Shown here: positions 5,876-26,995 of the stretch, in pieces
Layout: the number at the start of each line of letters is the position of its first letter
Position numbering within the stretch: position 1 is the first letter of the stretch
Origin: a virus
Length of the DNA: 37,622 nucleotides
Virus record (IMG/VR): IMGVR_UViG_3300001596_000105
Coordinates: 1-37,622 of that record
Direction: 5' to 3' (one strand)
Position numbers and translations under genes: made by a program
The notes under the pieces: model-generated
The model's input: the letters and a program-made list of their open reading frames with translations, nothing else
Told to the model about the DNA's origin: nothing
The model's database searches: none

Positions 5876-5884
5876 GGTCAATGA

Positions 5885-6403: not shown

Positions 6404-6420
6404 ACTCTAGATTTTATTGA

Positions 6421-7632: not shown

Positions 7633-7650
7633 TTTTCTAATTTTTAAATC

Positions 7651-9140: not shown

Positions 9141-9141
9141 G

Positions 9142-12400: not shown

Positions 12401-12446
12401 CGGTACCTAATACCTTTATCGAAAATCCAAATTCCTTATCAGCCAT
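9405..12446 (-). CDS. Tail tape measure protein
   Basis: A 1013-residue protein that sets tail length and is ejected with the DNA. It shows long Glu/Gln/Lys-rich coiled coils at residues 15-130 and 410-830, a hydrophobic region near 230-265 (ALMATGIGAIVVLLGSLLAA), and a C-terminal Gly/Ala-rich part with the phage-tail pattern GGMLDGPSHARGGIPIVAEG. By the usual rule of about 0.15 nm per residue it predicts a tail near 150 nm, hence siphovirus form. I start at MADKEFG (12446); an ATG six bases upstream is equally possible. It overlaps the 901-residue gene and, unusually, follows it. Confidence 0.95.
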   Translation of the reverse strand: MADKEFGFSIKVLGTEEQVSNLGKVESQLKAIAQQRSDLNKKVKEGTLTEEEYGQNIADLNLKTKSLRDSKRQLERSIDVENELLDQQGGSYNQLSSQINKLRQQYRNMSEEERNSARGQEILQKIDTLDTELKGIDASMGQYQRNVGNYSSAFGSLGSQLGQLSPTLGQVQSQYQQINNVLIVVKESLFGQAVAQDAATTAAVGGTAAQEGLAISTKATTGVTKGQITALKALRIALMATGIGAIVVLLGSLLAALVSTQRGMDGVNSVLRPLSAFFQRLFGVIQNVGLGVFDQLKKAISDPKQALIDFGNAIKENIINRIEAIPKLFTSALSLTTNVFKSFGLRAKTLLADIPIIGKNIDATQAKKELAEVNKSIKDNALELADSVIQAGTGVEEGTKKLQDFFEQSGEFIAESIEAGNRIHQLQIQIEEIEIRNARLREKLLADVKRYNDIAEDTKKTEQERADAALKAIDANDKVLKLDKELIQAKIRLKEEQNSLNDTSRSDELELEELRGELFRKETERQEARTTLRNKFNIIEEQAERERLKLIKENNRKILEAATKFYDAHIDQLDTHVSKRIELLDQLTQLQILSVQKRLRDEVISEKEAQDEIFEIQQESFQKQLKAREIELIGLTNLREELQERLGNLFEQEENERTEVMRQQLEGQLNELELHYNEVKIIIEEVTKKWDEARKAQESNNPKSGESLFKLLFGIDADNNLVNQIGSLMQSLYQGVFQLKQQELEKSLNKELEMVEAQQNKALEATQARYKKEKRLLQQKLDEGEISQEEYNERLAHLDSKLSHEKERIDERYAQKEEALREQAFEREKRLSISRAYMDAALAVIKAFATMDPISAAIYASTVGVTTGFQISQIQAQEYALGGMLDGPSHARGGIPIVAEGGEAVINKRSMASRDVLNLSGTPYEIASAINAYKGYGKAFGMGGQVPYPAPPISQSRNISKALTGIEMNQIADRIIKGITIGVNDKKVILVQGDREDFDNEVLIVKQSKQWST

Positions 12447-15144
12447 GGACATATAGTTTTGATGTGATTTGATCTACCAGTTGGCTGGCCCCTTGGTAGT
12501 CTGAATAGAGGGATAAAGTATAGGTGTAGATTCCAGGATCGGCTAGGGTTACATCAAAGATTTGGGTTTCATCAGTATTGATGGGAAGGCTAAAGGTTGG
12601 TCCAATATCCACATATGGAGGATCAAGGAATTCAAGAGTGACGTAGCAGTTAGAGGTTGAATAAATTCCAGACGAAAGACTCCTTACAAAAGCTGACAGT
12701 TCAAAGCTCTGCCCAGCATTAATTTGGGTGAAGTATCCATAACCACAGAGCCAGACAGGATGGGTGAAGCCATCGCTATAGAAATGCAAGGGCGCTAGGC
12801 CTTGGTAGTTGACACTATGCGGAATTACGTGGGCTACTATATTCGTGTTATCTCGAAGGGAGTCGTCTGCAATATCCCCACTGCCTACCGATTTTATAAG
12901 GGTTTGAAAACCATTGGGCGTGGTCTTGACGGTTACATTGTCCAAACTTTGATAGTGGTCAAATGCGATAGTCGCATACTCAGCAATTCTACCAATTTGC
13001 TCGAATCCTATGGAGTAGCCAATATCTACTGGGTTAGGAAATGAAGCTACTCTATCAATGAAAACACTGGAAATCATCACAAACTTATCCGAAAGAGATA
13101 CTAGATCTGAATGCCCGGTAAGCACCACCGGAAAAACAGCATGAGGAAAGTCTTGGACAAATACTGATTTCGTGCTATTATCCCTAGTTGGGTCGAAATT
13201 TTCAATATCTATTAATCTGAGTTTCCCATGCTCATTAGAATGATATAGTTTTCTAAAGCCATTACTTTCATCCTCAGCAGTATTCTCTAGGTTTGCGATA
13301 TCAAGCTTATTCCAACCAATGTAAGTGGTCAAATGCTTTTGTCGGGATGCGATTCGAGCCTTCAGGGCCGAATAGAACTTTGAGAGAAACCCTTCGGAAT
13401 CGAGGCTTTCAAATTCTATGTCTTCAAAATTTAGGTTTAAAGTATCATCTGAAAAATGTATTTCTGGGATGCTCTCCGTTTGCTCGATGACATTTGGCCC
13501 AGGTTGGTAGGTATAGTCATTGTTGAACCTATAAAGGGTGTGCTTCTCCACGGATTTATTCCCGGAATAGTAGAAAAGGTTGTTGGTTGCTGAACCACTT
13601 AATACTAGTGAACCTTTGTAGTGTAATAAGGCATCTACGAGGTTGGATTTCTTGAAAAAGGATAAGCTTATTTCCTGTGTTTCCGTTGAACCCTCAGGGT
13701 TTTCAATTAGAGCACCATCTTCTGATCCATTGTATTTAAACCAAAGCTTCTTCGCTAACAAGGTGGTTATTTCTCTAACTTCAATCTGCTTGGATCCATC
13801 TATCCTTGAATCTAGATTTTCAGTAACGGTGGAATAGAAGTTCCCTTCAGGTTCTATAAATACTGTTTTGGTGCTTTCATTGGTAATGAATTGAAGGTTC
13901 CAGAGGATGGCACAATCAGATATAAAGGAAAGCTGAGAGATATCGGCTAGGTAGTATTTTGAAATATCAACCCATTCATAATTAGTCAAGTGAGTAAGTC
14001 CTGAAATCTTGAATATGGTGCTGTAAGGGTCGGCATTGTATTGACGTGCAGTAGCCGAACCATAATCATGGGCATAGGTGAGTCTGAAGGTGACTTCTTG
14101 ACCCGTCTTTAGAAAAAGCTCCTCAAAGTCCACAGAAAGGACGGTGTCATTATCCAGGATTGTTTGTTTTTCAACATTCACCTGTTCTTGCAAGAACCCA
14201 TCTACATAGAGGTAAACTGTGGTTATATCGGCAAGTATAGTCCCAGTCCCAAAGCGTAGTTCAAAACTAGCCTGGTAACCTCCATCTTCAGATACAACAT
14301 ATTTCTCATTGATGGTGTCGAAATGATCGCTCGTGTCCTTTAAGCCCGTGTTTATTAGCTCGCTAGAAACGGTTATTTCTGGATCATCTAAATCAAAGGT
14401 AAGTGGCACCTCTATTTCTTGAATGCCGGAACCTGCAGGCGTACTATGGCTTAAGGCATTTTCATTGCCTGCAACTGCATCTTTTTGACTCCAGTATGCA
14501 TCATCTTTAGCTCGATACTCCGGGTGAAACCAAAACCGGCTGCAATAGTCCGAATCTATAAACTGTGAGACCACTTTAAACCCAGCATCTCGGAAGATTT
14601 CTTTGAAAATCCTTCGGACATTTAAAGCCAGGTTGAACTCATTGGGTCGCACACTATCATTTCTTTGAGCTTGAGGATGGGTGTATAGGAATACACTTTG
14701 ACCTAGGTTGGATTGACTCCAGAGAATAGCCTCGGCACTCTGGTAGTGGTTGTAATTGGAGAGGTCAATTTCTGAGAGGAGCTTTTTGGGTAATATCTGG
14801 CTCCAGCTGTTTTGACCAACGATCAAGAAATGATATTCTACTGAATTACTTTTCCTAATGGTCTTAACGGGTTTGTATTGGCCTCGCAGAATGACGAGAC
14901 CTTGATATTCAATATAAGCCTCGGTGCCTTCTTGAATATTAGATTCGGAGATTGCTAAATGAAGGTTTCCGAATAGCCTTCGGTTACTTCTAGATCCTGA
15001 GGCCTTTATCACGTTACTAACGCTGCTACTTCGATTTTGAAGGTTTTCGGCATCAGTAATTGCATGGTCACTTAGGAGTCTATCCAAAGTGTCCTCCACA
15101 AGATCAACTTGCAGGCCAGCGATATAGACAGTCGGTTTTGGCAT
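12439..15144 (-). CDS. Large tail protein, possible tail-tip/hub
   Basis: A 901-residue structural protein beginning MPKPTVYIAGLQVDLVEDTL. The N-terminal 120 residues read like a tail-tip or hub start, with the SNVIKASGSRSNRRLFGNLH region resembling those of other Bacteroidota phage tail proteins; the rest is strand-rich, with Ig-like segments near residues 250-360 and 780-900. It may sit at the baseplate or tail tip. It begins with a TAATG overlap on the 98-residue gene and directly precedes the tape measure in transcription. The tail assignment rests mainly on size, composition and neighbours. Confidence 0.65.
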   Translation of the reverse strand: MPKPTVYIAGLQVDLVEDTLDRLLSDHAITDAENLQNRSSSVSNVIKASGSRSNRRLFGNLHLAISESNIQEGTEAYIEYQGLVILRGQYKPVKTIRKSNSVEYHFLIVGQNSWSQILPKKLLSEIDLSNYNHYQSAEAILWSQSNLGQSVFLYTHPQAQRNDSVRPNEFNLALNVRRIFKEIFRDAGFKVVSQFIDSDYCSRFWFHPEYRAKDDAYWSQKDAVAGNENALSHSTPAGSGIQEIEVPLTFDLDDPEITVSSELINTGLKDTSDHFDTINEKYVVSEDGGYQASFELRFGTGTILADITTVYLYVDGFLQEQVNVEKQTILDNDTVLSVDFEELFLKTGQEVTFRLTYAHDYGSATARQYNADPYSTIFKISGLTHLTNYEWVDISKYYLADISQLSFISDCAILWNLQFITNESTKTVFIEPEGNFYSTVTENLDSRIDGSKQIEVREITTLLAKKLWFKYNGSEDGALIENPEGSTETQEISLSFFKKSNLVDALLHYKGSLVLSGSATNNLFYYSGNKSVEKHTLYRFNNDYTYQPGPNVIEQTESIPEIHFSDDTLNLNFEDIEFESLDSEGFLSKFYSALKARIASRQKHLTTYIGWNKLDIANLENTAEDESNGFRKLYHSNEHGKLRLIDIENFDPTRDNSTKSVFVQDFPHAVFPVVLTGHSDLVSLSDKFVMISSVFIDRVASFPNPVDIGYSIGFEQIGRIAEYATIAFDHYQSLDNVTVKTTPNGFQTLIKSVGSGDIADDSLRDNTNIVAHVIPHSVNYQGLAPLHFYSDGFTHPVWLCGYGYFTQINAGQSFELSAFVRSLSSGIYSTSNCYVTLEFLDPPYVDIGPTFSLPINTDETQIFDVTLADPGIYTYTLSLYSDYQGASQLVDQITSKLYVHG

Positions 15145-15440
15145 TATTCGGTCACCCGAGTCTTAATGTTTGATATGTCAAATCCCTGTGGCAAAACAAG
15201 ATGGCTCACCCAATCACCAAGGACCGGGGCTTTGGTTAGAGTGCTATCTTCGGCGTATTCACCTGGGGAGACCACCTCTTGGCGAGGCTCGGTCACAATG
15301 AAACGATCAAAGGGACCAAAGCTCCGCTCATATCCTTCCGGATAATTAGGGTAAACGGACTCACCGTCCCACATTAGTCCTTTAATATCCGCCTCCACGG
15401 CGACTTTTGTTCCTTTGAGTGTCGTTTTCGTGTAGTTCAT
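15144..15440 (-). CDS. Small hypothetical tail-operon protein
   Basis: A 98-residue protein starting MNYTKTTLKGTKVAVEADIK. It is strand-rich and rich in Pro and Gly, with no TM segment. It has a 12-base gap after the lectin-like gene and a TAATG junction into the 901-residue gene, so it is probably a structural or assembly partner of its neighbours. Family not recognised. Confidence 0.6.
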   Translation of the reverse strand: MNYTKTTLKGTKVAVEADIKGLMWDGESVYPNYPEGYERSFGPFDRFIVTEPRQEVVSPGEYAEDSTLTKAPVLGDWVSHLVLPQGFDISNIKTRVTE

Positions 15441-15452
15441 GAGATTGAGGTT

Positions 15453-16643
15453 TTAAGTGGTTGCGGCGTTGATATCGCCCTCAGAGAGTGCTAGCGGTGC
15501 AAAGGCAGCTGCGTACAGATCAAGGCCCCACCCATTTATCATTTGAGCAAAGAGTTTCGTAATAGCGAGGGAGCCACCCATATCAACATTTAGAGCAATG
15601 GTTGAACCGGCAAGACTCACAGTTGCAAGGTTTCCATTGACAGAAATAGCCAACTTTTTACGAGTAGAAACATCTTGATACCCTCCTAAAAGTGTACCTC
15701 CTGAAATCCATGAGGCACTAGTTCCATTTATTGAGCAAACTAGCTCAAGAAGGTTTGCGTCTGCAACATCTCTAAATCTTATTAGTCGGGACCCATTGAC
15801 CCCGGCATTAGGCGGTAGTTTAAAGTCAAGTAAGAAAGTAAAGGCGCTGGAATCTATAATCCCATTACTCACCAAATTATCAAAGGTGAATTGATTTGCG
15901 GAGCGGGTCACATTGTTGGGTATTGGACTAATCCCCTCATGCCCCGCTTGAATATCTCTTAAGGTGATATTGACCCCTTTATTGACATCACCATCAAAAG
16001 AAGTATTTAAACTTCCATCTAGCACACGCATTAAGAAGCGAATTGATGTTTGGCTTGCACCTGTTGTAATGGGTAGAAAAATTAGAAACTTACCGTTTCC
16101 TTGTTTAACTAGGCTAGCAGATCCGGAAGCTGTTTCGGCTTCAAAGTCGATATTAGTAATTGCCGAAGAGCCTAGGCCTTCTTGCAATCTGAAATTTCTC
16201 CCACCCACCGGCTCCACCTCGATTATCATGGTGTAGTCAGTTGAAGAGCTAAACCCGGAAAAGTCTTGAAAGGCAAAAAACTCCGAAGCCAAAGAGCCAT
16301 CCTCTCGGATTTGAGTGGCGTTTGGGATAGTCACATTAACCTTAGAGGCCGCTGAAATATCAATGGGAGATGTGCAAAGGTTTTGACTTTGAGGCCGCAT
16401 TTTTATAACCGGGCAGCCCCCTCCAATTGGAAAGTCCCAATCCGGCTCATTTTCGGACAGCTCTTGCAAAACCCCATCCTTATCGAATACAGTGGCCCCC
16501 GAAGCGGCCCCCACATTCGGGCGGGAAAATGAAGCCTCTAATATCCTGCCTTGGGGATTACCTGGGGTAGGTTTTTGGTAAAAAGCGAGTGCGCCAACCT
16601 TTGTTTGAAGATCGAGTATTGTTTGAAAGGCTTTTAAGCTCAT
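15453..16643 (-). CDS. Lectin-like tail protein, possible receptor-binding protein
   Basis: A 396-residue protein. Residues 40-95 carry a pattern I know from Bacteroidota phage fibres: FSRPNVGAASGATVFDKDG, then ENEPDWDFPIGGGCPVIKMR, PQSQNL. The middle and C-terminal regions (about 120-380) are beta-rich with repeated hydrophobic strands, resembling carbohydrate-binding (concanavalin/LamG-like) modules, though the fold is not proven. A role in adhesion to a capsule or surface glycan follows. The ATG at 16643 overlaps the upstream stop as ATGA; the TTG six bases earlier is unlikely. Confidence 0.65.
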   Translation of the reverse strand: MSLKAFQTILDLQTKVGALAFYQKPTPGNPQGRILEASFSRPNVGAASGATVFDKDGVLQELSENEPDWDFPIGGGCPVIKMRPQSQNLCTSPIDISAASKVNVTIPNATQIREDGSLASEFFAFQDFSGFSSSTDYTMIIEVEPVGGRNFRLQEGLGSSAITNIDFEAETASGSASLVKQGNGKFLIFLPITTGASQTSIRFLMRVLDGSLNTSFDGDVNKGVNITLRDIQAGHEGISPIPNNVTRSANQFTFDNLVSNGIIDSSAFTFLLDFKLPPNAGVNGSRLIRFRDVADANLLELVCSINGTSASWISGGTLLGGYQDVSTRKKLAISVNGNLATVSLAGSTIALNVDMGGSLAITKLFAQMINGWGLDLYAAAFAPLALSEGDINAATT

Positions 16644-16903
16644 GGCCAAAATGATTTAATGGTTTGATATCTACAGGAATTGTCCAGTGAAACGAATCCG
16701 GAGGCAGAGGCTAAGTCCTCTATTTGAAGGGTTTTAAACCATTCATTGCCATCTTGAAAGGCTTTAAGCGATTCATTTTGACAGCTTGAGTCCAGAACTT
16801 CGAAGCCTTGAATTCTTCCTAGATTTCGAGCATTTCTAGCAAGGAGTCCAACACTACTATGCCGGCTCTGAACTACGGCCTGCCTAATGGTTAAATGATT
16901 CAT
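16640..16903 (-). CDS. Small hypothetical tail-operon protein
   Basis: An 87-residue protein beginning MNHLTIRQAVVQSRHSSVGL, with a TAATG junction to the upstream gene and an ATGA junction to the lectin-like gene. It has two imperfect internal copies of a motif ending in a Ser-Cys pair: GFEVLDSSCQNESLKAF and GFVSLDNSCRYQTIKSF, about 38 residues apart. This suggests a short two-repeat fold. No function recognised. Confidence 0.6.
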   Translation of the reverse strand: MNHLTIRQAVVQSRHSSVGLLARNARNLGRIQGFEVLDSSCQNESLKAFQDGNEWFKTLQIEDLASASGFVSLDNSCRYQTIKSFWP

Positions 16904-17187
16904 TACCAACCAAAGATTAAGTCACCAGCAAAAGTGATGTCGCTACCGTTCTGGTAAATGACATCTATGCGGTCTGAAATCCAAACATCCGTTTCTTGTA
17001 TGATCAAATCCCTTTTAATGTTCGCGTCATCGCCGACATAGTGAACCTTTAAGGTTCCAGAGGATTTACTTTTGACCTTTCCACCATCTCTGTGCGGTGC
17101 TATAAAGTCACCCCCTGAGATATCAACATCCGAGGTTTGTGCTATTTCAAAGATGATGGGCTTTCCCAGGCTATTTTTAATTTTCAT
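16903..17187 (-). CDS. Small beta-rich hypothetical tail-operon protein
   Basis: A 94-residue protein (MKIKNSLGKPIIFEIAQTSD), strand-rich, with the C-terminus ITFAGDLIFGW. It starts two bases after the upstream stop and ends in a TAATG junction. Probably a small virion or assembly protein; I do not recognise it. Confidence 0.6.
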   Translation of the reverse strand: MKIKNSLGKPIIFEIAQTSDVDISGGDFIAPHRDGGKVKSKSSGTLKVHYVGDDANIKRDLIIQETDVWISDRIDVIYQNGSDITFAGDLIFGW

Positions 17188-17189
17188 GA

Positions 17190-17648
17190 CTATTCGATAT
17201 TTCCAATTATTACATATTGATTCGATCCTAAGTGCCTTAGATAGAAGGCCGCTGGACTGGTTCTCACTAAATAAGAGTTGGCTTCAATAAATCCACCATC
17301 ATCACCTTTGAGAAAAACCGTTGATTTGGCGGCAATTGTGATGGACCCAGCACCATTGTTCTCGCCAAATGCAATCCAATTTTCGGGTAAATCAGGTGGT
17401 ATATCTAATTGAAGGTCTTCACTCGAATTATTTGCTAAAAGTTTAAGGTTGTCCGATTCGTTAAAATCTCTGTTCACCGTAAGGCTTAGGGTTTCATCCG
17501 AGAAGAAGTCCGATTGCTGGATGTATTCACCGCTGGAATTGGTGATATACTGTCGATAGCGGTTAAATCCTAGCCTAAGATTGTAATAGGCGTTTGCCTC
17601 AGGGCTCTCCGGTAAAGTGTCGACTTGAAAATGTTTTACTTCCGCCAT
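17190..17648 (-). CDS. Hypothetical structural protein
   Basis: A 152-residue protein starting MAEVKHFQVDTLPESPEANA, the pattern of a fibre or appendage protein N-terminus: the PEAxAYYNLRLG segment is common at the start of phage surface proteins. The rest is strand-rich, with ITIAAKSTVFLKGDDGGFIE and a C-terminal YLRHLGSNQYVIIGNIE. The ATG at 17648 gives a TAATG overlap; the ATG nine bases upstream would overlap more. It probably works with the lectin-like protein. Confidence 0.6.
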   Translation of the reverse strand: MAEVKHFQVDTLPESPEANAYYNLRLGFNRYRQYITNSSGEYIQQSDFFSDETLSLTVNRDFNESDNLKLLANNSSEDLQLDIPPDLPENWIAFGENNGAGSITIAAKSTVFLKGDDGGFIEANSYLVRTSPAAFYLRHLGSNQYVIIGNIE

Positions 17649-18220
17649 TAGCTCCATAGATTATTCCATTCCACGCTACCGGGAGCAGCGGGAATTGAAG
17701 GTTGAACATTCAGTGAGTTTTGATTGAGTCGTTCTACATTCAATTGATAGTCTATTTGAACGTTGATTAGCCGGATGGACTTCTTAGGAAGTGAGGTATT
17801 CAAAACGGATACAGGGAGGTAGTTATAGGCACCATTATCTAAATGCACCAGATATACCACTGGGCTATCGACCAGGCTTGAAAGAAAGTCCAAAGTGTCT
17901 GAGTCTAGGAACTCCGAGGTTAACGAACCGGAAATGGCAGCCTCCATGCCTTCCAGGAATCTCTGACTGTAGGTCAAATCTGATTGCTGCTTCCTGCTAT
18001 AAGTGCGAGCTGCTGCAAGGTCCTCCTCTTGCTTTGGGTTGAATGCATAGCTGTCCCACCCCCCTCTAGCGTTCAGCCACATCAAGGTAACGGGTGTGCA
18101 ATTCTCATTTTCAATGGAAATATTCACCTCTGGGCCGATCTGAGTCGCACCATCCATGAATCTCAAGGTGTAGCTCTCATGCAAAGGAGAGGGGAGTAGT
18201 ATGTAATGCTTCTTTGTCAT
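17648..18220 (-). CDS. Tail-operon structural protein with NARGGWDSY motif
   Basis: A 190-residue protein. Its central motif MWLNARGGWDSYAFNPKQEE (about 47-66) recalls a motif in Bacteroidota phage structural proteins, normally in longer polypeptides. The C-terminal half has a helical segment (RKQQSDLTYSQRFLEGMEAA) and strands. It begins with an ATGA overlap on the 186-residue gene, and the two together look like one functional unit split into two reading frames. Exact role unknown. Confidence 0.65.
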   Translation of the reverse strand: MTKKHYILLPSPLHESYTLRFMDGATQIGPEVNISIENENCTPVTLMWLNARGGWDSYAFNPKQEEDLAAARTYSRKQQSDLTYSQRFLEGMEAAISGSLTSEFLDSDTLDFLSSLVDSPVVYLVHLDNGAYNYLPVSVLNTSLPKKSIRLINVQIDYQLNVERLNQNSLNVQPSIPAAPGSVEWNNLWS

Positions 18221-18777
18221 GGAGAAACTGATAAATCAGGTAATGGGCTAACATGTGTTTCATCATATATGTAGCTTATCACAACCGGCTGAAAAGCCTT
18301 AACCTTAAGGTTTAAATCCCTATCCCCGAGGAACCTTCCGTCTCCAGCTTCAATTATGAAGTCAGAGGGAGTTGCAGTCTCGGTGGATTGAAAAAGGATA
18401 TTCGAGCAGTGAAAGGAGGCGCTTTGAAGGCTATCGCTTTCGCTAAACAAACCATCGGCATCATAGATGAGCTCAATGAAGGCGACCCGGTATTCGATCA
18501 TAGACCCAGTATCACCTATGACCTGCTCATGAGAACCTTGAGGGAAATTGATTTCGATAGCTGCATTCAGGGCCTGGTGAATGTAGCAGTCAAATGATCC
18601 GCTACTATTCTTATCAACGGTAATGTTGGCAAGCAATGTCCAGCTAGAATCAACCAAGTACTCAATGCGGCATTTGATTTTTAGCTCTGCATTAGTCTTA
18701 TCAGAAGAAACGTTGAATAAAATCGGCTGGAACACTGAGCTTAAGCTATTCGGTGATGTGTTGATTGTTACGGCCAT
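18217..18777 (-). CDS. Beta-sandwich-like tail-operon protein
   Basis: A 186-residue strand-rich protein, MAVTINTSPNSLSSVFQPIL, with the N-terminal form of an Ig/FN3-like domain: a proline-rich start, then NAELKIKCRIEYLVDSSWTL and GSFDCYIHQALNAAIEINFP. It has TAATG and ATGA junctions with both neighbours. It is probably a virion component that pairs with the 190-residue protein. No family name can be given. Confidence 0.6.
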   Translation of the reverse strand: MAVTINTSPNSLSSVFQPILFNVSSDKTNAELKIKCRIEYLVDSSWTLLANITVDKNSSGSFDCYIHQALNAAIEINFPQGSHEQVIGDTGSMIEYRVAFIELIYDADGLFSESDSLQSASFHCSNILFQSTETATPSDFIIEAGDGRFLGDRDLNLKVKAFQPVVISYIYDETHVSPLPDLSVSP

Positions 18778-19271
18778 TATGCTGCAATTTCAGTGTCATA
18801 GAAAGCCCTCTGACTTTCTTCAATCATGTTATTGAAAAGGGTAGTCACATAGCTCCCAGCTGCTTCCCTTATCATGGCATCCAGTTCGGTCTCATTGGCA
18901 TCTAGGGTGCCACTCATCCATCTAAGTTTATCTTGATTCCCATCGGTTGGTATTCCTTTTTGGTAGATCGAGGTTTGGATGGCGAAGGCGGTTTGCATTT
19001 CGCTCTTTCCCTCGAATGAAATCCCTTTTACCCTGATCCAATCTAGTAGCGCATCAATAGGAACTCGGGTTACGCCAGCGGCACGTCCGGTATCAACGAA
19101 TTTGCCATAGTACAAGTAGGAACCTTTCAATTCAAAGCCGTTGGTTATCTCTGAAACAGCAACCTCAATGGAGTTACCAAGGTCAGAAGTAGCCACATGG
19201 CCTTGGCGCTCCAATTCATCTTGAAGCTTAAGCTTTAACCATCGCGCGATATGTCGAAGTGCAGACTCCAT
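18777..19271 (-). CDS. Head-tail joining/tail completion-like protein (HK97 gp10-like)
   Basis: A 164-residue protein beginning MESALRHIARWLKLKLQDEL. The pattern YYGKFVDTGRAAGVTRVPID, LLDWIRVKGISF, AFAIQTSIYQKGIPT is typical of the HK97 gp10-like/minor tail family, in which a short conserved loop (Y..FVDTG) is followed by W-I and K-G-I segments. Proteins of this type help join head to tail. It begins with TAATG after the terminator-like gene. The assignment is by recalled pattern. Confidence 0.65.
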   Translation of the reverse strand: MESALRHIARWLKLKLQDELERQGHVATSDLGNSIEVAVSEITNGFELKGSYLYYGKFVDTGRAAGVTRVPIDALLDWIRVKGISFEGKSEMQTAFAIQTSIYQKGIPTDGNQDKLRWMSGTLDANETELDAMIREAAGSYVTTLFNNMIEESQRAFYDTEIAA

Positions 19272-19705
19272 TAACAAGTTTTCTTAGCACGAATTTTATA
19301 GTTGAACTCCATCCAGATGGGGTCGTTGTTGGTCAAGTAGCCTTCGTTGAATTTGAATCTACCTGGCTTTTCTAAAAGGAAGAGATCGGAACTGTCTTCA
19401 ATGGACTGGGCCAATAGCTTCTCGGTAGCTTGCAGGGCGGCCCAAACATCGTCCCTTTCTGAAGGGCTCATACGTTGGCCTGAAGAATTATTCTCTGCGA
19501 TTAAGTAAAGTTTCACCTCATAGGTGGAGCTCCAGTCATCTGCCTTAAGATCTGGAATCTGTGCAGGGGGGGTGAATAGGAGGTAGGGGTAGGTTAAATC
19601 CGATTCTCCATTTTGCTCTTGAACCCAGCCATGTGTAAAAGCATTAATGCCCTCAGTTGCGAGGGCTAAAGTTTGAATGCTATTTCTAAATTCGACGATG
19701 TTCAT
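19271..19705 (-). CDS. Putative tail terminator-like protein
   Basis: A 144-residue protein with a mixed helix/strand pattern: MNIVEFRNSIQTLALATEGI at the start, STYEVKLYLIAENNSSGQRM in the middle and DPIWMEFNYKIRAKKTC at the end. Size, position beside a gp10-like gene, and the central VKLYLI strand suit a tail terminator or tail-completion protein. Its ATG overlaps by three bases (ATGA) the stop of the -1 frame extension of the preceding gene, which supports that frame being used. Confidence 0.5.
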   Translation of the reverse strand: MNIVEFRNSIQTLALATEGINAFTHGWVQEQNGESDLTYPYLLFTPPAQIPDLKADDWSSTYEVKLYLIAENNSSGQRMSPSERDDVWAALQATEKLLAQSIEDSSDLFLLEKPGRFKFNEGYLTNNDPIWMEFNYKIRAKKTC

Positions 19706-20597
19706 TTTCCGTGTTCTGCTAACTGTTGTGCTCGGTGAATTGCGAGGGTGTTCATGAAGTCGTGAGCGTTGGCTTTTTGAACCTCAATGAGACTGCCAAG
19801 AGCGCCCGTTTTCGCCACTTCGACGATGCAGGCATACCAACCGTAGCTTTCCACTTTAAGCTTCTTAGCCGGTCCGCTTCCACCTGGAGAATAGAGAGTA
19901 GGGAGTGTTGTTGCAAAATGATTGTGGACTCGACCAACGAAAAAAAAACCTCCCAGACCACATCCATAGGCAAATCAAGGAATTCTTCGGATCTCCTTCC
20001 GGAAATTACTTCATCATAGGCCTCACCTTCCGGACGACAGATGATAGCAATGATCTTAGCAGCATTGGAAAGCTGACCTTCTTCCATCTTGGCAGCTGCA
20101 ATCTGCAGGTCTGCAATTTCAGTGAATTCCAAGGCAGTTAGGGACACTCCTGGCTTGGTATAGCCAAAAAGCTCTGTAGAGGAGGGGAGTCGATAGGTAG
20201 TGCCTTTGTGCTTAAAGGAAGTGATCCCTTTACTCTCATAGGCAGGCCATACTATTAGACCTAGGACCAAAGGACTCAGGTAGTGATCATACACAACCTT
20301 TCGTTCCGTTGGCGACATACTGGCCAATGTGGGTTCGGATATGTCGGATAGAAGAGAGAGCATATCCCCGTAAAGGGCTGGAAGTTTCTTGAACTGGTCT
20401 TCTGGAGATATCTGTTTGATAAGCTCCTCTACCCGAGATTCATCAGGACTTTCCTTCAGCTTTTCATGGAATAAGTCCTTCACATATTCGGGTAGGCTGA
20501 ATGCAATTTTGCTTAGCTCTAATGCCTCCCTTAAAGAAATGTCTTTCCACTCATCCTTGAGCTTGACCTTGGTATTATGGATTTTGAGATTAACCAT
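19702..20597 (-). CDS. Tail assembly chaperone-like protein with candidate -1 frameshift (G/GT-like)
   Basis: Read without a shift, it is a 281-residue protein stopping at 19752. The -1 frame, open from before the T9 run to 19702, reads like real coding sequence over its last 60 codons (VESYGWYACIVEVAKTGALG, then SLIEVQKANAHDFMNTLAIH and RAQQLAEHGK) and ends in an ATGA overlap with the next gene. It has no usable start codon, while the zero-frame tail there uses unfavourable-looking codons (CGG, TCG, CGA). A -1 slip at T_TTT_TTT gives a 298-residue fusion: 219 common residues and 79 new ones. Frameshifted chaperone pairs before the tape measure are near-universal in siphophages, although here the tape measure is about 7 kb downstream. 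A one-base assembly error in the T9 run gives the same protein without regulation. Confidence 0.7.
19940..19949 (-). other. Slippery sequence GTTTTTTTTT (candidate -1 frameshift site)
   Basis: Codons 217-219 read GTT TTT TTT on the - strand, giving the heptamer T_TTT_TTT with the same base at every slip position. Slipping one base back moves ribosomes into a 79-codon frame that ends at the next gene. A second, weaker site, C_AAA_AAG near 19777, could also shift into that frame. Confidence 0.6.
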
Positions 20598-21246
20598 TTA
20601 CCTGACGACGCAAAGACTTGATTTGACGGTTTAACACCTTGTTCACGCCCACTAATGCTCGGAAGTTCTTTCCGTGCTTTCGTTTGTAGCTAATGGCGTC
20701 TTTGATTTCGTTTTGGGCTTTTTCAATGGCCTTAATGGCTGGTGAGACATGATTGTCTAGCCCATCAATGAATTTTGCCCGCTCCTGCTTGGCGTTTGAT
20801 GCCATTTGATGGCTTATAGCATCCTTGAAGCGGGTTTCAGCTACATGATAGAGTCTTTGAAAATCCTCGAAATCTGCTGCAGCAAGCTCTTCCTTGGCAT
20901 CTTGAAATAGCTTCTCCGCACGATCCTCCCGGAAAGCATTTACAATAGCTTCGATTGTGTTTTCTTCCTCTTCGGCTCTCAGGGCTTCGGAGTCACCTTC
21001 TCCTTCCTCTGACCCTTCTTCCGAACCCTCTTCCGAGTCGTAGTTTTCCTCGGTTGGTGGTGGAGTACTTCCTTGCTCTGGTGGCGTGGGAGCAGGCTCT
21101 TCGCGAACTTGTTTGATATCTCGATACAAAGTGCTGTCACTTAGCTCAAGGTTCAATTCATCTCTGAGGTATTCTTTAATTTCTTGATCCGATTTACCAG
21201 ATTCAACAAGTGTGCGAATAAGATCTAATCGTTCTGACTTTTCCAT
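20590..21246 (-). CDS. HTH plus acidic linker plus coiled-coil protein after terminase
   Basis: A 218-residue protein in three parts. Residues 1-50 have a helix-turn-helix form (KSDQEIKEYLRDELNLELSD, STLYRDIKQVREE). Residues 50-95 are Pro/Glu/Ser-rich and strongly acidic. Residues 95-218 are helical (AEKLFQDAKEELAAADFEDF, QRLYHVAETRFKDAISHQMA) with a basic C-terminus. It is the first gene of the tail operon, immediately downstream of the divergent node. It could be a DNA-packaging partner of terminase, a small-terminase-like protein, or a late regulator. Not assigned to a family. Confidence 0.6.
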   Translation of the reverse strand: MEKSERLDLIRTLVESGKSDQEIKEYLRDELNLELSDSTLYRDIKQVREEPAPTPPEQGSTPPPTEENYDSEEGSEEGSEEGEGDSEALRAEEEENTIEAIVNAFREDRAEKLFQDAKEELAAADFEDFQRLYHVAETRFKDAISHQMASNAKQERAKFIDGLDNHVSPAIKAIEKAQNEIKDAISYKRKHGKNFRALVGVNKVLNRQIKSLRRQVNG

Positions 21247-21358
21247 ATTAGCGGGTCATTATTAATCGTATAGATTACAAAGTAATCGAATAGATTTCAT
21301 TTTTCTTCGTAAAAACTTGAAATTTTCCAATGGACTACCTTCGTATAAAACCAACCAG
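21247..21358. promoter_or_regulatory. Site A: divergent regulatory node between tail operon and moron
   Basis: The - strand holds AATCTATTCGATTACT (+ 21281-21296), then GATTACTTTGTAATC, an inverted repeat shared with the early switch at 34633-34650. Further upstream are ATTTCAA and TTTTACGAA, shared with the node at 8.8 kb. On the + strand, TTG (21317-21319) and TACCTTCG (21336-21343), 16 bases apart, resemble a Bacteroidota promoter for the moron at 21359. Confidence 0.6.
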
Positions 21359-21637
21359 ATGAAATACGAAATCTCCTTTGAAGGGTCCTTTGGTCTAGCG
21401 ATAGAAAGGGCCGCTCAAATTCCTTATGACGCACTTGATAAAGATAATCCTGTACGAGTTTTTAGGAGAGCTAAAGAGATTCTGAATGAATTAGACCATG
21501 GTGGTTCCTATTATGTCCAGTTTTTTCCCTCTGCATTAAAATTTAACGCCCTACCTCGGGATTGTGAAGGTCTGACTAACATGGAGGTCATCAATATCAC
21601 TAACATTTTGAATAGGATTAGGGATAAAATGGACTAG
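21359..21637 (+). CDS. Small opposite-strand moron protein
   Basis: A 92-residue soluble protein starting MKYEISFEGSFGLAIERAAQ at the ATG at 21359; an in-frame TTG at 21317 lies inside the promoter-like sequence and is unlikely. It ends seven bases before the convergent terL stop. It sits against lytic transcription, with its own promoter-like boxes, at the terminase/tail boundary. No TM segment, metal motif or known family seen; a host-takeover or lysogeny function is possible. Confidence 0.6.
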   Translation: MKYEISFEGSFGLAIERAAQIPYDALDKDNPVRVFRRAKEILNELDHGGSYYVQFFPSALKFNALPRDCEGLTNMEVINITNILNRIRDKMD

Positions 21638-21643
21638 TTCTAA

Positions 21644-23095
21644 TCATAAACTCCCCCAACTAGCAATACCTCGTTTAATCCTTAAGTCGAAATGAGCGCG
21701 CATTAACAATAGGTCCCGCCAATCTGGTGAGCGGCCAAGGTCTTTCTTTATCTCCTTTTTTGGTTTGAGATGGACCTTTCGGTCATCATCGGTTTTCCAG
21801 CTTTTTAGCTCGGATAGTTCCTCTCTGATTTCTTGCTTTTCCTCTTCAGTAAAAGGGGATTTCAACCAGAGTTGATGCGAATTGATTTTGTCTACTAGGA
21901 AGTAACCGCATTGAACTTGGTAGTTAGCATAATTGGGCTCTTCCTTGATGCCTTTTGACTTACGGTTAGTGTTCATCTTGACCTTAACCGGTTTTGCGTT
22001 ATTGACAAAGCCTTCGATTCCGCAGTTATCCACTACACCGCCTCCGACACCATCTTGATCAGCAACACAGTTCTTTTTGGGAATTTGGAATTGCTTGCGA
22101 TAGGAGTTGATCTGGATTTGGATATCCGTGGTTAGGGATAAATCAAAGCTTTTGGTGGCTACAACTGTCCAATCTTTCCAAACCGCAATTCTAGCCTTGT
22201 CGGACCCTAAACGTGCTACATCGCAAGTCAGGTAATGATCCTTTCCTTCATTATCTAGGTGGTCATTCTGAAATACAGCTTCAATATCATCAAAGGAGCA
22301 AAGGGCATCTGGACTATCATCATAATCCCAATTTCCCTTAAGTAGCCTTTCCTTTTTCGCCTTATCCTTGGTTCTTTGTAGCCTTTCCAAGTAACCTTTT
22401 TCCCGGAATGGATTATCCTGGACAAAAGCCTGGAGGAACTTCATCATTCTAGGAAGCTTCCCCTGCAAGGCGGGCTTGTAGAATTGCGAATACAGCCAAT
22501 TCTTTTTTGGGTTACAGGTGATAAAGAGCTTCGCGGTTATTCCATAAAGATCATTGTAATGCCGCCCTATCCGAGTTCTTAAGGTATCGTAGGCCCCGAA
22601 GTCAATTTCCCCACCTTCTTCAATCCATCCACCGGTGTATTCAGTGGATCCAAGCCTTTCATACATGGGATCACGCGGTAGATATTTTAATTCGAGTAAA
22701 TCGATTCGACTACCATTGGTGAATTGGATGAAGTTCTTTTGGCCATTATACTTGAAGGAATTGCACCCATAAGCCTTGGCGACCTTAAAGAAGGAAATGA
22801 GAGTAGATTCGGTTATCCTCTTTAACTCTTCACGTCCAATAAACCATCGTGTCTCAGGATAAAGTAGGCACATGAATAGTAGCCAGGTACAGCCAGTCCA
22901 GGACTTAGCCCCTCCGGCTGCTCCTCCGTAAAGAAACTCTTCAGTGACTGAATTAGTTAAGGTAAAGAGGGCTTGTTCTTGTTTTAGGTGACGTTTTCCA
23001 TCTCTTACTGTGACAAAGGAGAATTCATTTCTTCGGAATAGCTCCTTTCTTAACTCAATAGGAGATAGGTTCTCTAATATATTAGCCACTTGCAT
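21644..23095 (-). CDS. terL: Terminase large subunit
   Basis: A 483-residue DNA-packaging ATPase and nuclease. The ATPase has a Walker A-like loop at 57-65 (GGAAGGAKS) and a Walker B region at WIEE (157-160); the TCNPKKNW segment (193-200) is the coupling motif of this family. The RNase H-like nuclease domain has D292 (CDVARLGSDKA), D346 (ADQDGVGGG) and D458/D461 (SPDWRDLLL). It packages concatemeric DNA into proheads. It overlaps the terS stop by 14 bases. Portal is not adjacent, which is unusual. Confidence 0.95.
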   Translation of the reverse strand: MQVANILENLSPIELRKELFRRNEFSFVTVRDGKRHLKQEQALFTLTNSVTEEFLYGGAAGGAKSWTGCTWLLFMCLLYPETRWFIGREELKRITESTLISFFKVAKAYGCNSFKYNGQKNFIQFTNGSRIDLLELKYLPRDPMYERLGSTEYTGGWIEEGGEIDFGAYDTLRTRIGRHYNDLYGITAKLFITCNPKKNWLYSQFYKPALQGKLPRMMKFLQAFVQDNPFREKGYLERLQRTKDKAKKERLLKGNWDYDDSPDALCSFDDIEAVFQNDHLDNEGKDHYLTCDVARLGSDKARIAVWKDWTVVATKSFDLSLTTDIQIQINSYRKQFQIPKKNCVADQDGVGGGVVDNCGIEGFVNNAKPVKVKMNTNRKSKGIKEEPNYANYQVQCGYFLVDKINSHQLWLKSPFTEEEKQEIREELSELKSWKTDDDRKVHLKPKKEIKKDLGRSPDWRDLLLMRAHFDLRIKRGIASWGSL

Positions 23096-23618
23096 TTAGT
23101 AGGTCTTGCAGAGTCTTTGTGCTGAGCTTAGCAGGATCAATCTCCCCCTGCCTTTGCTTGTTGTCAAGCTCATAAAAACCGATATGCCGGTTAATCATCT
23201 CAATGGCTCGTTCTTTGGAAACAAAGTGAAGCTCCACGACCTCTTCAGATATACCTTCACTTATAAATCGCTTGGTATGCTTGAACTTGGTGATCAGCTG
23301 GCGCACCTCGAGAGGCAGTTCCTTGATTTGGGAGGGGGAGAGGTTGATAGTTTCAGTAATGTCACTTTCCACCCAGGACTTCAATCGCTTAAGAACATCT
23401 TGATGCGAATACTCGATTTGTTGAGCGGCTTTAGCTTTAAGCACTGAAATGCGGGAAGCAATATGCTCCTTTCCTAGGACTTCATTCCCAATTTGCCTTG
23501 CGTTTTTCTCTGAATAGCCCGCACGAATCGCTGCCTGAGTGGCATTGAGGTCTACCATGTATTCCTGGCAGAAGCGAGATTCTTTGCTGGTGAAATGATT
23601 CTGGGCTTTGTCACTCAT
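23082..23618 (-). CDS. terS: Terminase small subunit
   Basis: A 178-residue protein of the Terminase_2 family, with the diagnostic N-terminal HTH region SKESRFCQEYMVDLNATQAA, IRAGYSEKNARQIGNEVL. It recognises pac/cos sequence and controls TerL. Its ATG follows within ten bases a hairpin and T-run, so its expression is probably subject to attenuation or readthrough, or uses a promoter between 23660 and 23734. Confidence 0.92.
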   Translation of the reverse strand: MSDKAQNHFTSKESRFCQEYMVDLNATQAAIRAGYSEKNARQIGNEVLGKEHIASRISVLKAKAAQQIEYSHQDVLKRLKSWVESDITETINLSPSQIKELPLEVRQLITKFKHTKRFISEGISEEVVELHFVSKERAIEMINRHIGFYELDNKQRQGEIDPAKLSTKTLQDLLNASG

Positions 23619-23660
23619 AAGAAAAAAGGAGGGAGGTCTTAGCCGTCCCTCCAGACCTGA
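23619..23660 (-). terminator. Terminator or attenuator with alternative pairing before terS
   Basis: On the - strand, four adjacent segments read AGGTCT, GGAGGG, AGACCT and CCCTCC, followed by TTTTTT and then the terS ATG. Segments 1:3 and 2:4 pair perfectly (six bases each) and are mutually exclusive as simple hairpins, although they could form a pseudoknot. The 2:4 hairpin plus T6 is terminator-like. It may end the T9SS operon upstream, or act as an attenuator for terS. Confidence 0.65.
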
Positions 23661-23677
23661 TTATGATAAAAGGTAAA

Positions 23678-23694
23678 TGTAATAAAATATATTA
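23678..23694. repeat. Dyad upstream of terS
   Basis: GTAATA-AAATA-TATTAC is a perfect 6-5-6 inverted repeat between the T9SS gene and terS. Its arm-spacer-arm geometry resembles AGATTA-nAAAG-TAATC at the other phage nodes, but the bases differ. It may mark a terS promoter/operator. Confidence 0.35.
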
Positions 23695-23734
23695 CAATTA
23701 CTATTGAAGTTAAATGTACATGAATGGAAGATTC

Positions 23735-25237
23735 CTATTTTTTCAGCATTATCTTGGAAACAGGTGCAGTATTGGTTAGGGTGATTACGAAGTAGTAAAG
23801 CCCAGCCGGGAGATCTTCCACAGGTAAGGAAGAAGTATACGGATACTTGAACTCTTTGATTAACTGTCCACCCGTATTGTAAATGGAAACCCCTTCTAAA
23901 TTGGAAGGGTCTTCAAGGTTAAAAAACACTTGGTTTTCAAAGGGGTTTGGATAGAGGCTAATTGGATTCGTAAATAATTCTTGAGATTCAACTTTCAAAG
24001 GGCTTATTCCATCTTTATTAAAGTTAACATAGCCAATAGCAGCAGCAAACCCAGTTCTAGATGAGCGGAAGGCCACAGTGGCGGTGGAATCTGGTCTTAA
24101 AGTAAAATAGGATTGGCCACTGTATTGAGCTAAATCGCTTCTAGAATTGAAGGCTCTTAAATTAAATGCTTCGGTACTATTAATCAGATCTCCCGAAGCA
24201 TTATAAAATTGAAACCTTCTACCGCCTTGTGATTCTGGTCGACCATTATGCAGGCCGTCCCTGTTAATATCCGAATCAATAACATAGGATCCATCAAAAC
24301 CACGCACTAATCTTATTCTAGGTTCCGTCCAAGTGCTATCTACACCTTTAGTTGCTGGTAGAATGAGGTCCTCACTAATTATAGTGTCCGAATTGAAATT
24401 GAACATGCGGATGGAAGCATTCACAATTGAATCTCCCAATTGGTGATTTAGGTCATAAGAAATATAGAAAGGCTGTTCAAGCCCTCTTTGAATGCCTACT
24501 GGCCCGAAACGGGGGAATTCGAAATCATCTGTTATACAGGCACATGATTTTTCATATTTGGCATGGACCAAATTAAGGTCCCCATTTGGTTTTGGAACAA
24601 ATCCCCTGAAATATTGAATCGAATCATTTCCAGCGATCCTGGAGATTTCAAAAACGGAGTCGAGTTGACTATAAGATCCAACCAGCTTACTCATCGAATC
24701 AGCACTAAAGGTATTTAGAACTGCCCCAGTATTCTTGTCTAGAAAAACGTAGTCTCCCGTAGTACTTGATCGACAAAAAATGTCTGAGTAAGTGTCTTCG
24801 TAGTCACTCACGCAGTCGACTAAGCGGAAGTTCTTCTTGGACCACTGTACATTTTTTGTTTTTAGATTCACGCATTCAATAATCTCCTCCTGCTGCCAAC
24901 GAGTATAAAAGGTGTGAATCGCAAGGTGGTCTGAAGTGAAAAGAAATTGGTCATCGATACTTTTATCTTTATCTTCAATCGTTGGGGTTATATAGTAATC
25001 AAGTAGTTGCCCATCTTTCCCATGGAGTACAACATAGTTCCTTTTGTTCTTGGCTGCTCCATATTGATAATTTACCATCCCAAAAATAGAGTCCTGACTA
25101 ACCTTAAATCCAGTAAAGCTTATTCGGTCAATTAGGCTTGGGGTATTGGGAATATCGGGAAGATAAGTAAGCCAGCCCTGGGCAGAAAGCCCAAAGCTGG
25201 ATAATAAAAAAAATATTATTACTGAGACTAACCTCAT
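23735..25237 (-). CDS. Secreted protein with T9SS type A sorting domain
   Basis: A 500-residue protein with a signal peptide (MRLVSVIIFFLLSSFGLSAQ) and a C-terminal type IX sorting domain: YPNPFENQVFFNLEDPSNLE, VSIYNTGGQLIKEFKYP, LPAGLYYFVI and a final KIMLKK. The middle is beta-rich, of unknown function, with no catalytic motif seen. It would be exported across the outer membrane and either anchored or released. T9SS substrates belong to Bacteroidota chromosomes and are not phage structural proteins, so this is probably captured host cargo. Its ATG overlaps the upstream stop (ATGA). Confidence 0.8.
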   Translation of the reverse strand: MRLVSVIIFFLLSSFGLSAQGWLTYLPDIPNTPSLIDRISFTGFKVSQDSIFGMVNYQYGAAKNKRNYVVLHGKDGQLLDYYITPTIEDKDKSIDDQFLFTSDHLAIHTFYTRWQQEEIIECVNLKTKNVQWSKKNFRLVDCVSDYEDTYSDIFCRSSTTGDYVFLDKNTGAVLNTFSADSMSKLVGSYSQLDSVFEISRIAGNDSIQYFRGFVPKPNGDLNLVHAKYEKSCACITDDFEFPRFGPVGIQRGLEQPFYISYDLNHQLGDSIVNASIRMFNFNSDTIISEDLILPATKGVDSTWTEPRIRLVRGFDGSYVIDSDINRDGLHNGRPESQGGRRFQFYNASGDLINSTEAFNLRAFNSRSDLAQYSGQSYFTLRPDSTATVAFRSSRTGFAAAIGYVNFNKDGISPLKVESQELFTNPISLYPNPFENQVFFNLEDPSNLEGVSIYNTGGQLIKEFKYPYTSSLPVEDLPAGLYYFVITLTNTAPVSKIMLKK

Positions 25238-25587
25238 GATTTGATCAGTTTATATGCTTGTTCATCAACCTTCACGATGTAGGTGCCAGGTGCTAAAGAC
25301 TCAATGTTGATTTCGATTTGATTAGCGTTTGCCTGCGTTGAATATACAATTCTTCCATTTAAATCAAATACGGTGATATTTGGGTATTCTCCTTTGTTAA
25401 AGCGCGTACCAAAATCCACTTGGAATCTTTCCGTAGCTGGGTTGGGGAATATTGAAATCTGATTTTGAGAATTCTCAGTTTCCACATTTATTACATGTGA
25501 TCCAGTTCCATTACAAAAGGATGGCATTTTGAATTCCATGACGAAAGTGGAGATGCTTATGGATGTACTACCTTTCGGAATGGCCAT
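25234..25587 (-). CDS. Stand-alone T9SS sorting domain, probably a truncated remnant
   Basis: A 117-residue protein starting MAIPKGSTSISISTFVMEFK at the ATG at 25587 (a GTG three bases upstream is possible). Residues 35-117 form an almost complete sorting domain: SIFPNPATERFQVDFG, ITVFDLNGRIVYS, LAPGTYIVKVDEQAYKLIKS. There is no signal peptide and almost no cargo domain, so it is probably the 3' remnant of a larger secreted protein cut at the 25.6 kb junction. It nevertheless keeps an ATGA overlap with the next gene, so it is not clearly dead. Confidence 0.6.
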   Translation of the reverse strand: MAIPKGSTSISISTFVMEFKMPSFCNGTGSHVINVETENSQNQISIFPNPATERFQVDFGTRFNKGEYPNITVFDLNGRIVYSTQANANQIEINIESLAPGTYIVKVDEQAYKLIKS

Positions 25588-25714
25588 CACTATATTGAGT
25601 ACAACTCAGATCACCCAACAATTATTGGTGTATCCTAATCCTCCTGATTAGTCAACTGAACTCCCAAGGAACTGGTTTAGCCGTGCCTTGGGAGTTCCTT
25701 ATAATAGTTTTAAT
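25588..25714. repeat. Divergent intergenic region with two strong dyads
   Basis: Between the leftward T9SS genes and the rightward HNH-like gene lie CTAATC-CTCCT-GATTAG (25635-25651, perfect) and a 12-bp perfect inverted repeat, GAACTCCCAAGG (25658-25669) with CCTTGGGAGTTC (25686-25697), 16-nt loop. A weaker CACCCAA/TTGGTG pair is at 25612-25630. No T-run follows the large hairpin on either strand. Divergent operators, RNA hairpins or a recombination junction are possible. Confidence 0.55.
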
Positions 25715-26398
25715 ATGGATTTCTCGAATCAATCTATAAATCCTGCAATTGTGCTTAGTGAGAACAAATCGGTTAAAATAGAATCGACTTTCGCTACTGT
25801 AGTATATCCTCCTTCAACACTTTACAACGTTCAGGGAAGTACTTACGATCCTAAGCACATTCCTGGAGCTTCAGGGTATTCTTGGAAGCAGCTACTGATC
25901 TATTATGGAATTGGTGTTCCTGGGAATGCTGATGATTGTTGCTTTGCTATATCCCCTCCAGCTCCGGGTGGTTCCACCCATCCTCAATTTTTAGTTGGTG
26001 GACACATGACCACCAGTAGTAATGGCGTAGTTCCGGTTGGGGGTATTTGTTATTTAATGCCACTATGCAAGTGGCATAATAGCACGAACAGGGATGGTAT
26101 CCCTTTCACTCCATTGCATAAACCAATACTGGAGCTATATGGATACATGCAAGCTGAGCCTGCTGCCTTATTTAAAATGCGTTTACCCAGCGAAGAGCGC
26201 TTTGCAGTTATCAGAATTAAGGATGGCTCTTGGATTTCAGAGAACCTTTCTGAAAATAGTATGAATCTATTCGAAGCTAGGTCAAAGAACAAGGCCGCAG
26301 ATGCTGATGATCACTATTTCTTATTTGAAAGGGATAAAGAAGATAATTCTTTGACTCTAGTTAACCAGGGAGGGGTAAAGGACTTATCAGAATTGTAA
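25715..26398 (+). CDS. HNH-like (treble-clef) protein of unknown function
   Basis: A 227-residue protein starting MDFSNQSINPAIVLSENKSV at the ATG at 25715; a TTG at 25688 falls in a hairpin. The central part carries HPQFLVGGHMTTSSNGVVPV followed by CYLMPLCKWHNSTNRDGIPF, a H...LC..HN arrangement like the second half of HNH nucleases, with a CC pair just before it. The C-terminal 90 residues are Asp/Glu/Lys-rich. I recall similar GGHM/PLCxWHN proteins in Bacteroidota but know no function. No signal peptide is visible. It may be a nuclease or toxin-like effector, but that is inference. Confidence 0.55.
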   Translation: MDFSNQSINPAIVLSENKSVKIESTFATVVYPPSTLYNVQGSTYDPKHIPGASGYSWKQLLIYYGIGVPGNADDCCFAISPPAPGGSTHPQFLVGGHMTTSSNGVVPVGGICYLMPLCKWHNSTNRDGIPFTPLHKPILELYGYMQAEPAALFKMRLPSEERFAVIRIKDGSWISENLSENSMNLFEARSKNKAADADDHYFLFERDKEDNSLTLVNQGGVKDLSEL

Positions 26399-26648
26399 TC
26401 TCTTCTTTGTAAAGCCTTGTTTTTTGGTGTTATAATTTCTTGTGTCAATGGGTTTAAGTCACTGATTTACAAAAATTAATATTCACTTTATTTCTAGTAA
26501 AAGGAAATGGCGACTAACCAGTTCTTGATGAAAATGAAAGTTAATTAATCGGCTAACCAACTTGTTGTGAGTGGATTTAAAATAAGTGGATTTTAATTTT
26601 ATTAAATTGCAATAATTAGAAGTCAGAAAAAAAATTAAGACCTGAGAT
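26399..26648. other. AT-rich intergenic region
   Basis: A 250-base AT-rich gap. It holds a short repeated AGTGGATTT and two copies of CTAACCA 39 bases apart. No clear promoter, hairpin or RNA gene was identified, and the sequence is compatible with decayed DNA ahead of a broken kinase gene. Confidence 0.4.
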
Positions 26649-26981
26649 TTGAAGGATTTATTGTTGGAGAGCCTTAATGCTGGAAGTTGGGAATGGGATA
26701 TTCAAACCGGCGATGAAGAGTGGAGCGATCTATTTTATGAGATCCTTGGTTACAGTAGGGGGGATTTAAAACCTACCTATGAGACCTTCATTAATTTCTT
26801 GGTAGAGCCTTCTCATAAAAATATGGTTGAATCTGCAGTGGAAGACCATTTGAATAAGAAGACTCCGTATGACGTAAAGATTCTGATGCTAACCAAAACG
26901 GAAGGTTATCAATGGTTTAGGTCGATTGGAAAGGCCCTTTTTGAGGATGGAAACCCAGTTTATATGATTGGAGCTTATTAA
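26649..26981 (+). pseudogene. PAS-domain fragment of a broken sensor kinase
   Basis: A 110-residue PAS domain (ESLNAGSWEWDIQTGDEEWS through GNPVYMIGAY) that has no ATG and begins immediately after an in-frame TGA (TTG is the only start). Its end, VYMIGAY, is where a PAC motif would continue as a D-I segment; the base sequence stops there with TAA, but the following frame reads KIHSEMESELKNTQ, as expected from one continuous PAS-PAS kinase. One substitution (CAA to TAA) plus a one-base deletion would explain this. The downstream kinase gene is intact from its own ATG. Confidence 0.6.
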
Positions 26982-26995
26982 AAATCCATAGCGAA

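Follow-up and report, generated by a model that had tools for sequence, protein, structure and literature searches.

Tail assembly chaperones made as two products through a -1 frame change are well known, and the design with a short and a long product is typical of tail chaperones, whose known families diverge strongly. In lambda G/GT-type units the two products are kept at a fixed ratio, with the N part binding the tape measure protein and the extension binding the tail tube protein. Lambda-type G/GT frameshifting is ribosomal where tested, and its sites may do without a stimulator; in gene E/E+E' of phage P2 the frameshift site is T_TTT_TTG. In Thermus dnaX, slippage at a run of nine A's sets the ratio of two products. 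Slippage is also proven in the Shigella genes mxiE and spa13, which are bacterial type III secretion genes and in which slippage at a homopolymer leads to a longer functional product (PMC5009743, PMC1088944). The long mxiE product comes from an inserted U at a U run (PMC1088944), and the spa13 extension overlaps the next gene (PMC5009743, PMC1088944).

Here we describe a recoded gene in IMG/VR record IMGVR_UViG_3300001596_000105, which was analyzed over its entire length of 37,622 bases (the window). Like lambda gpG/gpGT, the gene would use one start for a short and a long product, with a -1 change near the end of the first frame and an extension that overlaps this end; the phage, too, is long-tailed and encodes a tape measure protein. 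Unlike the lambda and HK97 chaperones, it is without sequence similarity to known families. Unlike lambda G/GT, it lies near the terminase gene and about 7 kb from the tape measure gene, and nine or more T's always mark its junction, where none of 146 homologues has another heptamer. As in mxiE and spa13, slippage at a homopolymer would give a longer functional product, and as in spa13 the extension overlaps the next gene; slippage is proven in those genes, whereas in the phage it is predicted from sequence. The likeness to Thermus dnaX is that a homopolymer of nine would set the ratio, with the differences that the dnaX run is made of A's and that slippage there makes the shorter product.

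New elements are the family, a junction that strictly has nine or more T's, a location near the terminase gene, and a possible transcriptional frame change. In the open-access literature that we searched, which excludes most subscription papers, we found neither polymerase slippage in a phage tail chaperone nor this T9 family described. The analysis identifies a recoded gene, probably the missing tail chaperone, for a broad set of Bacteroidota phages, most of them uncultured. In these phages the protein is truncated by standard gene callers, and the sequence signature now allows its annotation. We propose, with slightly less than even confidence, that a large Bacteroidota phage family sets its ratio of short to long chaperone by RNA polymerase slippage at a run of at least nine T's. 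If this is true, the regulatory logic of lambda G/GT has been shifted from translation to transcription, and the cultured Nonlabens phage P12024S offers a testable case of whether the G/GT ratio is set by polymerase or ribosome.

Layout of the gene and coding in both frames

The recoded gene is on the minus strand of the window and has the following parts.

20597-19752, minus strand: zero frame, ATG start, 281 aa
19941-20597, minus strand: N part, common to the short and long products, 219 aa; candidate G-like domain of a tail assembly chaperone
19948-19940, minus strand: T9 slippage run, including the in-phase T_TTT_TTT at 19947-19941
19702-19941, minus strand: -1 frame extension, 79 codons plus TGA (19704-19702); T-like domain
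19752-19940, minus strand: 62-aa tail of the zero frame beyond the slip point; overlaps the extension and is dual-coded

A first-pass annotation of the window had placed the zero-frame stop at 19752, a -1 frame open across T9 down to 19702, and an ATGA overlap with the next gene, and all of these coordinates are correct. Codons 217 to 220 are GTT TTT TTT TCG, which sets the register G_TT TTT TTT T_CG. The -1 frame is stop-free from about 11 codons 5' of the slip point down to the TGA at 19704-19702, and this stop overlaps the ATG of the next gene (start 19705). Across the whole window, T9 is the only run of at least nine A's or T's. The extension is predicted to be helical and carries the motif YGWYACIVEVA...DFMNTLAIHRA. 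The first ATG, GTG, or TTG of the -1 frame is a GTG at extension codon 30; the earlier statement that the extension has no start codon of its own thus applies to its junction-proximal part.

We counted substitutions by codon position in 94 pairs of related sequences, which were pooled and are therefore not independent. In the region read only in the -1 frame, positions 1, 2, and 3 had 639, 364, and 2156 substitutions, an ordinary protein-coding pattern, and the N part read in its own frame gave a similar one (1051/713/2896 in the same pooled pairs). In the overlap, the -1 positions had 426, 201, and 392 substitutions in these pooled pairs. If the overlap were read in the zero frame alone, about 62% of substitutions would be expected at the third position of that frame, equivalent to -1 position 1; this position is no longer dominant there, and the third position of the -1 frame is freed. 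Judged by codon-position counts, the extension clearly codes for protein and the overlap is constrained in both frames. The hidden 79-codon extension of the first-pass annotation is thus real, with a protein-like substitution pattern and conservation in homologues.

Constraint on both frames in the overlap favors a fusion over an extension that is started separately. It is very unlikely that no frame change takes place and that the extension is a separate protein from an internal start. Such starts are available in most relatives, with candidates in the GTG at codon 30 of the window extension, an ATG in P12024S gp39 (which is annotated as an internally started gene), and, in many relatives, a TTG that precedes the slip by five codons. 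This TTG is absent from the window, the constrained -1 overlap (426/201/392) sits upstream of most internal starts, and a separate start would leave the strictly kept run of at least nine T's unexplained.

The T run and the change of frame

Homologues were gathered by protein-pattern scans of IMG/VR in which the T run was not used as a criterion. The set holds 146 distinct sequences, which fall into 47 clusters when grouped at 70% identity and 25 when grouped at 50%, and most of these relatives are about 25 to 45% identical to the query used. At least nine T's were present at the same junction in all 146 (T9 in 129, T10 in 15, and T11 in 2), while T7, T8, or any other X_XXY_YYZ heptamer was found there in none. 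Elsewhere in the N part, the longest T run was at most seven in all 104 genes of the first set. In homologues on long enough contigs, the zero-frame tail has 20 to 84 codons and the -1 extension has 73 to 110 codons. A GW motif is nearly always present in the extension, and a helical motif like DFM..L...A in most cases. Shorter extensions were seen in L133 and L205, and 30 codons in both frames in L096; these three loci are near contig ends.

The junction occurs in two registers. Class A, which includes the window, reads GTT TTT TTT T and then C, G, or A, and class B reads xxT TTT TTT TTG (TTA once). An in-phase T_TTT_TTT is present in the window and all homologues. Class B junctions also offer an in-phase T_TTT_TTG and in this resemble P2 E/E+E', whereas class A junctions are without it and the run here has 9 to 11 T's.

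A sequencing error in T9, which the first-pass annotation had named as the main alternative, can be dismissed on these counts. Homopolymers are error-prone, the record comes from a contig collection, and a true run of T8 or T10 would turn the gene into one continuous frame. Against this, at least nine T's and the same frame relation recur in independent assemblies from many samples and in the isolate P12024S, every sufficiently long homologue has both the zero-frame tail and the extension, and the overlap shows constraint in both frames by its substitutions. No single-frame homologue was found among the relatives from the protein-pattern scans. A sequencing or assembly error is therefore extremely improbable. 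The T9 junction together with its open -1 frame is far beyond chance, and we regard conserved programmed recoding of the lambda G/GT type as almost certainly real.

In the mechanism that we propose, one start would yield a short product, the 219 shared residues followed by the 62-residue zero-frame tail, and the same start would yield a long product, in which the 219 residues are joined to the 79-residue -1 frame domain. The frame would switch at the T9 run, where RNA polymerase would add one U while copying T9, and a fraction of the mRNA would then read straight into the extension. The short and long products would act like lambda G and GT, as tail assembly chaperones of a long-tailed temperate Bacteroidota phage. 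This whole account, a two-product chaperone unit with polymerase slippage at T9, is tentative, and we would give it not quite an even chance. Given real recoding, the sequence comparisons tilt modestly toward polymerase rather than the ribosome as the agent of the frame change.

Any run of at least nine T's holds an in-phase T_TTT_TTT, so the junction alone cannot separate polymerase from ribosome. We therefore used 1067 other open reading frames (ORFs) of these phages, with expectations from synonymous-codon shuffling over related genomes, which are approximate. In-phase T_TTT_TTT occurred 95 times in these ORFs versus 135 expected (ratio, 0.71), and out-of-phase T7 or T8 occurred 46 times versus 63 expected (ratio, 0.73). 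Phase-specific avoidance of T_TTT_TTT was thus not detected in the 1067 ORFs (Fisher P = 0.9). Runs of at least nine T's were absent from them, versus 9.8 expected, and the coding share of A/T runs dropped sharply, from 0.63 for runs of eight to 0.35 for runs of nine. Folding upstream and downstream of the junction gave a mean z of about 0 in 43 representatives, in a test that covered structures other than pseudoknots. From the ORF counts, the coding share, and the lack of a structure signal, it is the run length and not the heptamer that stands out, which favors polymerase slippage. Many bacterial genomes show selection against slippage-prone runs from length nine on (PMC1088944). In vivo, polymerase slips efficiently at nine A's or T's (PMC5009743), and insertions during transcription prevail in A/T runs (PMC5574713). 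The avoidance of long T runs elsewhere may also be due to replication slippage, and dual-frame coding can account for the T's that flank the heptamer.

The same two-product unit could also be ribosomal, with a -1 slip of two Phe-tRNAs at T_TTT_TTT, the route of lambda G/GT and of many other phages, a reading that we consider a serious possibility of lesser probability. The heptamer is in phase in every homologue, with T_TTT_TTG in addition in class B; long-tailed phages widely conserve G/GT frameshifting, which in lambda takes place on the ribosome (PMC5009743); and a ribosomal route would not require a stimulator, as the efficiency needed is low. What argues against the ribosome is that none of the 146 sequences has a shorter T run or a different heptamer, that other genes of these phages often contain an in-phase T_TTT_TTT and show no special avoidance of it, that the 43 representatives have no RNA structure signal near the junction, and that ribosomes shift weakly on U_UUU_UUU in E. 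coli (PMC5009743). The first-pass annotation had called T_TTT_TTT an ideal slippery heptamer; it is indeed in phase at a site of programmed -1 recoding, and it is doubtful that the heptamer is what matters, as it is ordinary in other genes. The sequence GGGAGG directly before T9 was considered as a Shine-Dalgarno-type stimulator and was rejected because its spacing is wrong and it follows from conserved Trp-Glu-Val codons.

Function and neighborhood of the recoded gene

We searched Pfam, PHROG, and PDB sequences with the N part and the extension and found no match. The AlphaFold2 model of the N part had a pLDDT of 89 and a pTM of 0.84. Its top-ranked match among solved structures was the HK97 chaperone 2OB9 (VIA-align; Z of 3.5, by itself too weak to establish a chaperone fold), spanning 74 residues within model residues 126 to 219, in the C-terminal half of the N part. 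Foldseek against the PDB returned nothing significant, and the extension model (pLDDT, 74) compared with eight PDB chains gave no match with a Z of at least 2. From the two-product design, the siphophage neighborhood, in which tape measure, head protease, portal, and terminase genes share one module, and the weak 2OB9 match, the recoded gene is probably a G/GT-type tail assembly chaperone. Counting against this role are the lack of a family match, the weak Z score of 2OB9, and a tape measure gene that is not adjacent. The earlier label "chaperone-like" is thus plausible, favored by the top-ranked fold match and disfavored by the missing Pfam, PHROG, and PDB sequence matches.

The following neighbors bear on the role of the gene.

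19271-19705, minus strand: next gene, candidate tail terminator; ATGA overlap; phrog_78 tail terminator, E value of 0.09
18777-19277, minus strand: HK97 gp10-like neck/connector candidate, by pattern only; phrog_21534, no function
21644-23095, minus strand: terminase large subunit; phrog_979, E value of 5e-20, and Pfam Terminase_6N; conserved upstream neighbor
9405-12452, minus strand: tail tape measure protein; phrog_3336, E value of 5e-13

The first-pass annotation had described a G/GT-like design with the chaperone-like gene far from its tape measure gene, which is borne out by the two coding frames and by a tape measure gene about 7.2 kb downstream. Its description of the next gene as terminator-like is plausible, with a weak PHROG match to a tail terminator. 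G/GT-type genes have the major tail protein gene on one side and the tape measure gene on the other, which is not so in the window, and relatives are similar. Throughout the family the recoded gene comes right after the terminase gene or one gene on, the latter in the window. As far as contigs reach, relatives keep the order terminase, recoded gene, terminator-like gene, neck-like gene, and later tape measure, protease, and capsid. Homologues of the next gene are in the same position in some relatives; most class A loci, and several of class B, have a homologue of the neck-like gene downstream of the recoded one.

It is unlikely, in our judgment, that the recoded protein is real and serves head-tail joining or packaging instead of tail assembly. 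Such a role would suit its position near terminase and neck genes across the family and the lack of any family match. The short/long design is typical of tail chaperones instead, 2OB9 ranks first among the fold matches, and the downstream genes are terminator- and neck-like, all of which speak for the chaperone.

The window phage is a temperate long-tailed phage, in which we recognized an integrase, small and large terminase subunits, a portal, a head protease, a capsid candidate, a tape measure protein, an amidase, and a holin. Scans of GTDB genomes found no relative, and hosts were therefore inferred from the terminase, which is similar to those of Bacteroides, Polaribacter, Flavobacterium, and Cellulophaga phages and is the basis for assigning Bacteroidota hosts.

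The structural module (4381-23095) has an unusual order, in which terminase, recoded, and neck-like genes come first and the tape measure gene late, followed by protease and capsid and with the portal last. The gene at 5885-6403 is a candidate for the tail tube protein, guessed from where it lies and matching no family. Outside this module, two secreted-looking proteins (23735-25237 and 25234-25590, minus strand) have type IX-like C-terminal sorting tails, as judged by eye. Beside this pair are PAS/histidine-kinase-like and response-regulator-like genes (26649-28496, plus strand; also by eye). The stretch from 23735 to 28496, recognized by eye only, looks like host-like cargo within the phage record.

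Phage P12024S and other named phages

INPHARED protein searches with the genes of the window and of loci L025 and L007 gave no match, and P12024S was reached through a fold search of viral models. The loci of this phage and of three others are as follows.

L128 (NC_018271), 23136-23830: Nonlabens phage P12024S gp38/gp39, T9 at 23578
L126 (PQ571276), 13305-13841: Bacteroides phage BS-TP3, single-frame 178-aa gene
L127 (NC_021867), 10047-10927: Flavobacterium phage 6H gp10, weak fold match to the N part
L125 (KC821618), 23855-24554: Cellulophaga phage phi10:1, unannotated chaperone-like frame

As in the window family, P12024S gp38 carries T9, in the class A register, together with a homologous -1 extension, and it comes directly after the terminase gene. 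The extension matches the family profile (hhalign; E value of 8e-7). Unlike the window gene, gp38 and gp39 are annotated as two separate, unrelated hypothetical proteins, with gp39, the last part of the -1 extension, as a gene of its own. Together, gp38 and gp39 appear to be one recoded gene. The N part of P12024S can no longer be aligned by sequence and is similar by predicted fold only (BFVD; E value of 1.2e-3). An arrangement that is shared while the N parts are unalignable implies that the arrangement is old. In phage P12024L, gp38 is 99% identical to that of P12024S.

BS-TP3 gp55 was considered as a single-frame homologue and was rejected, as a profile comparison gave no support. The 178-aa gene of BS-TP3 has the same place after terminase and before terminator-like and gp10-like genes, and it is a possible functional counterpart without a frame change. 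Phage 6H gp10 was likewise rejected as a member because it has a fold match only, a run of T6, and a -1 frame blocked by TAG. The unannotated frame after it has a motif like that of the extension (GLGMKGVLLSMAESGVYG...LWEILIRMY), and another route of expression would be needed for this frame. The chaperone-like frame of phi10:1 has an A8 run at 24216 and lies in the usual place next to tail genes, between tail protein gene gp084 and gp086, which suggests an overlooked frame change beside the tail genes of this phage.
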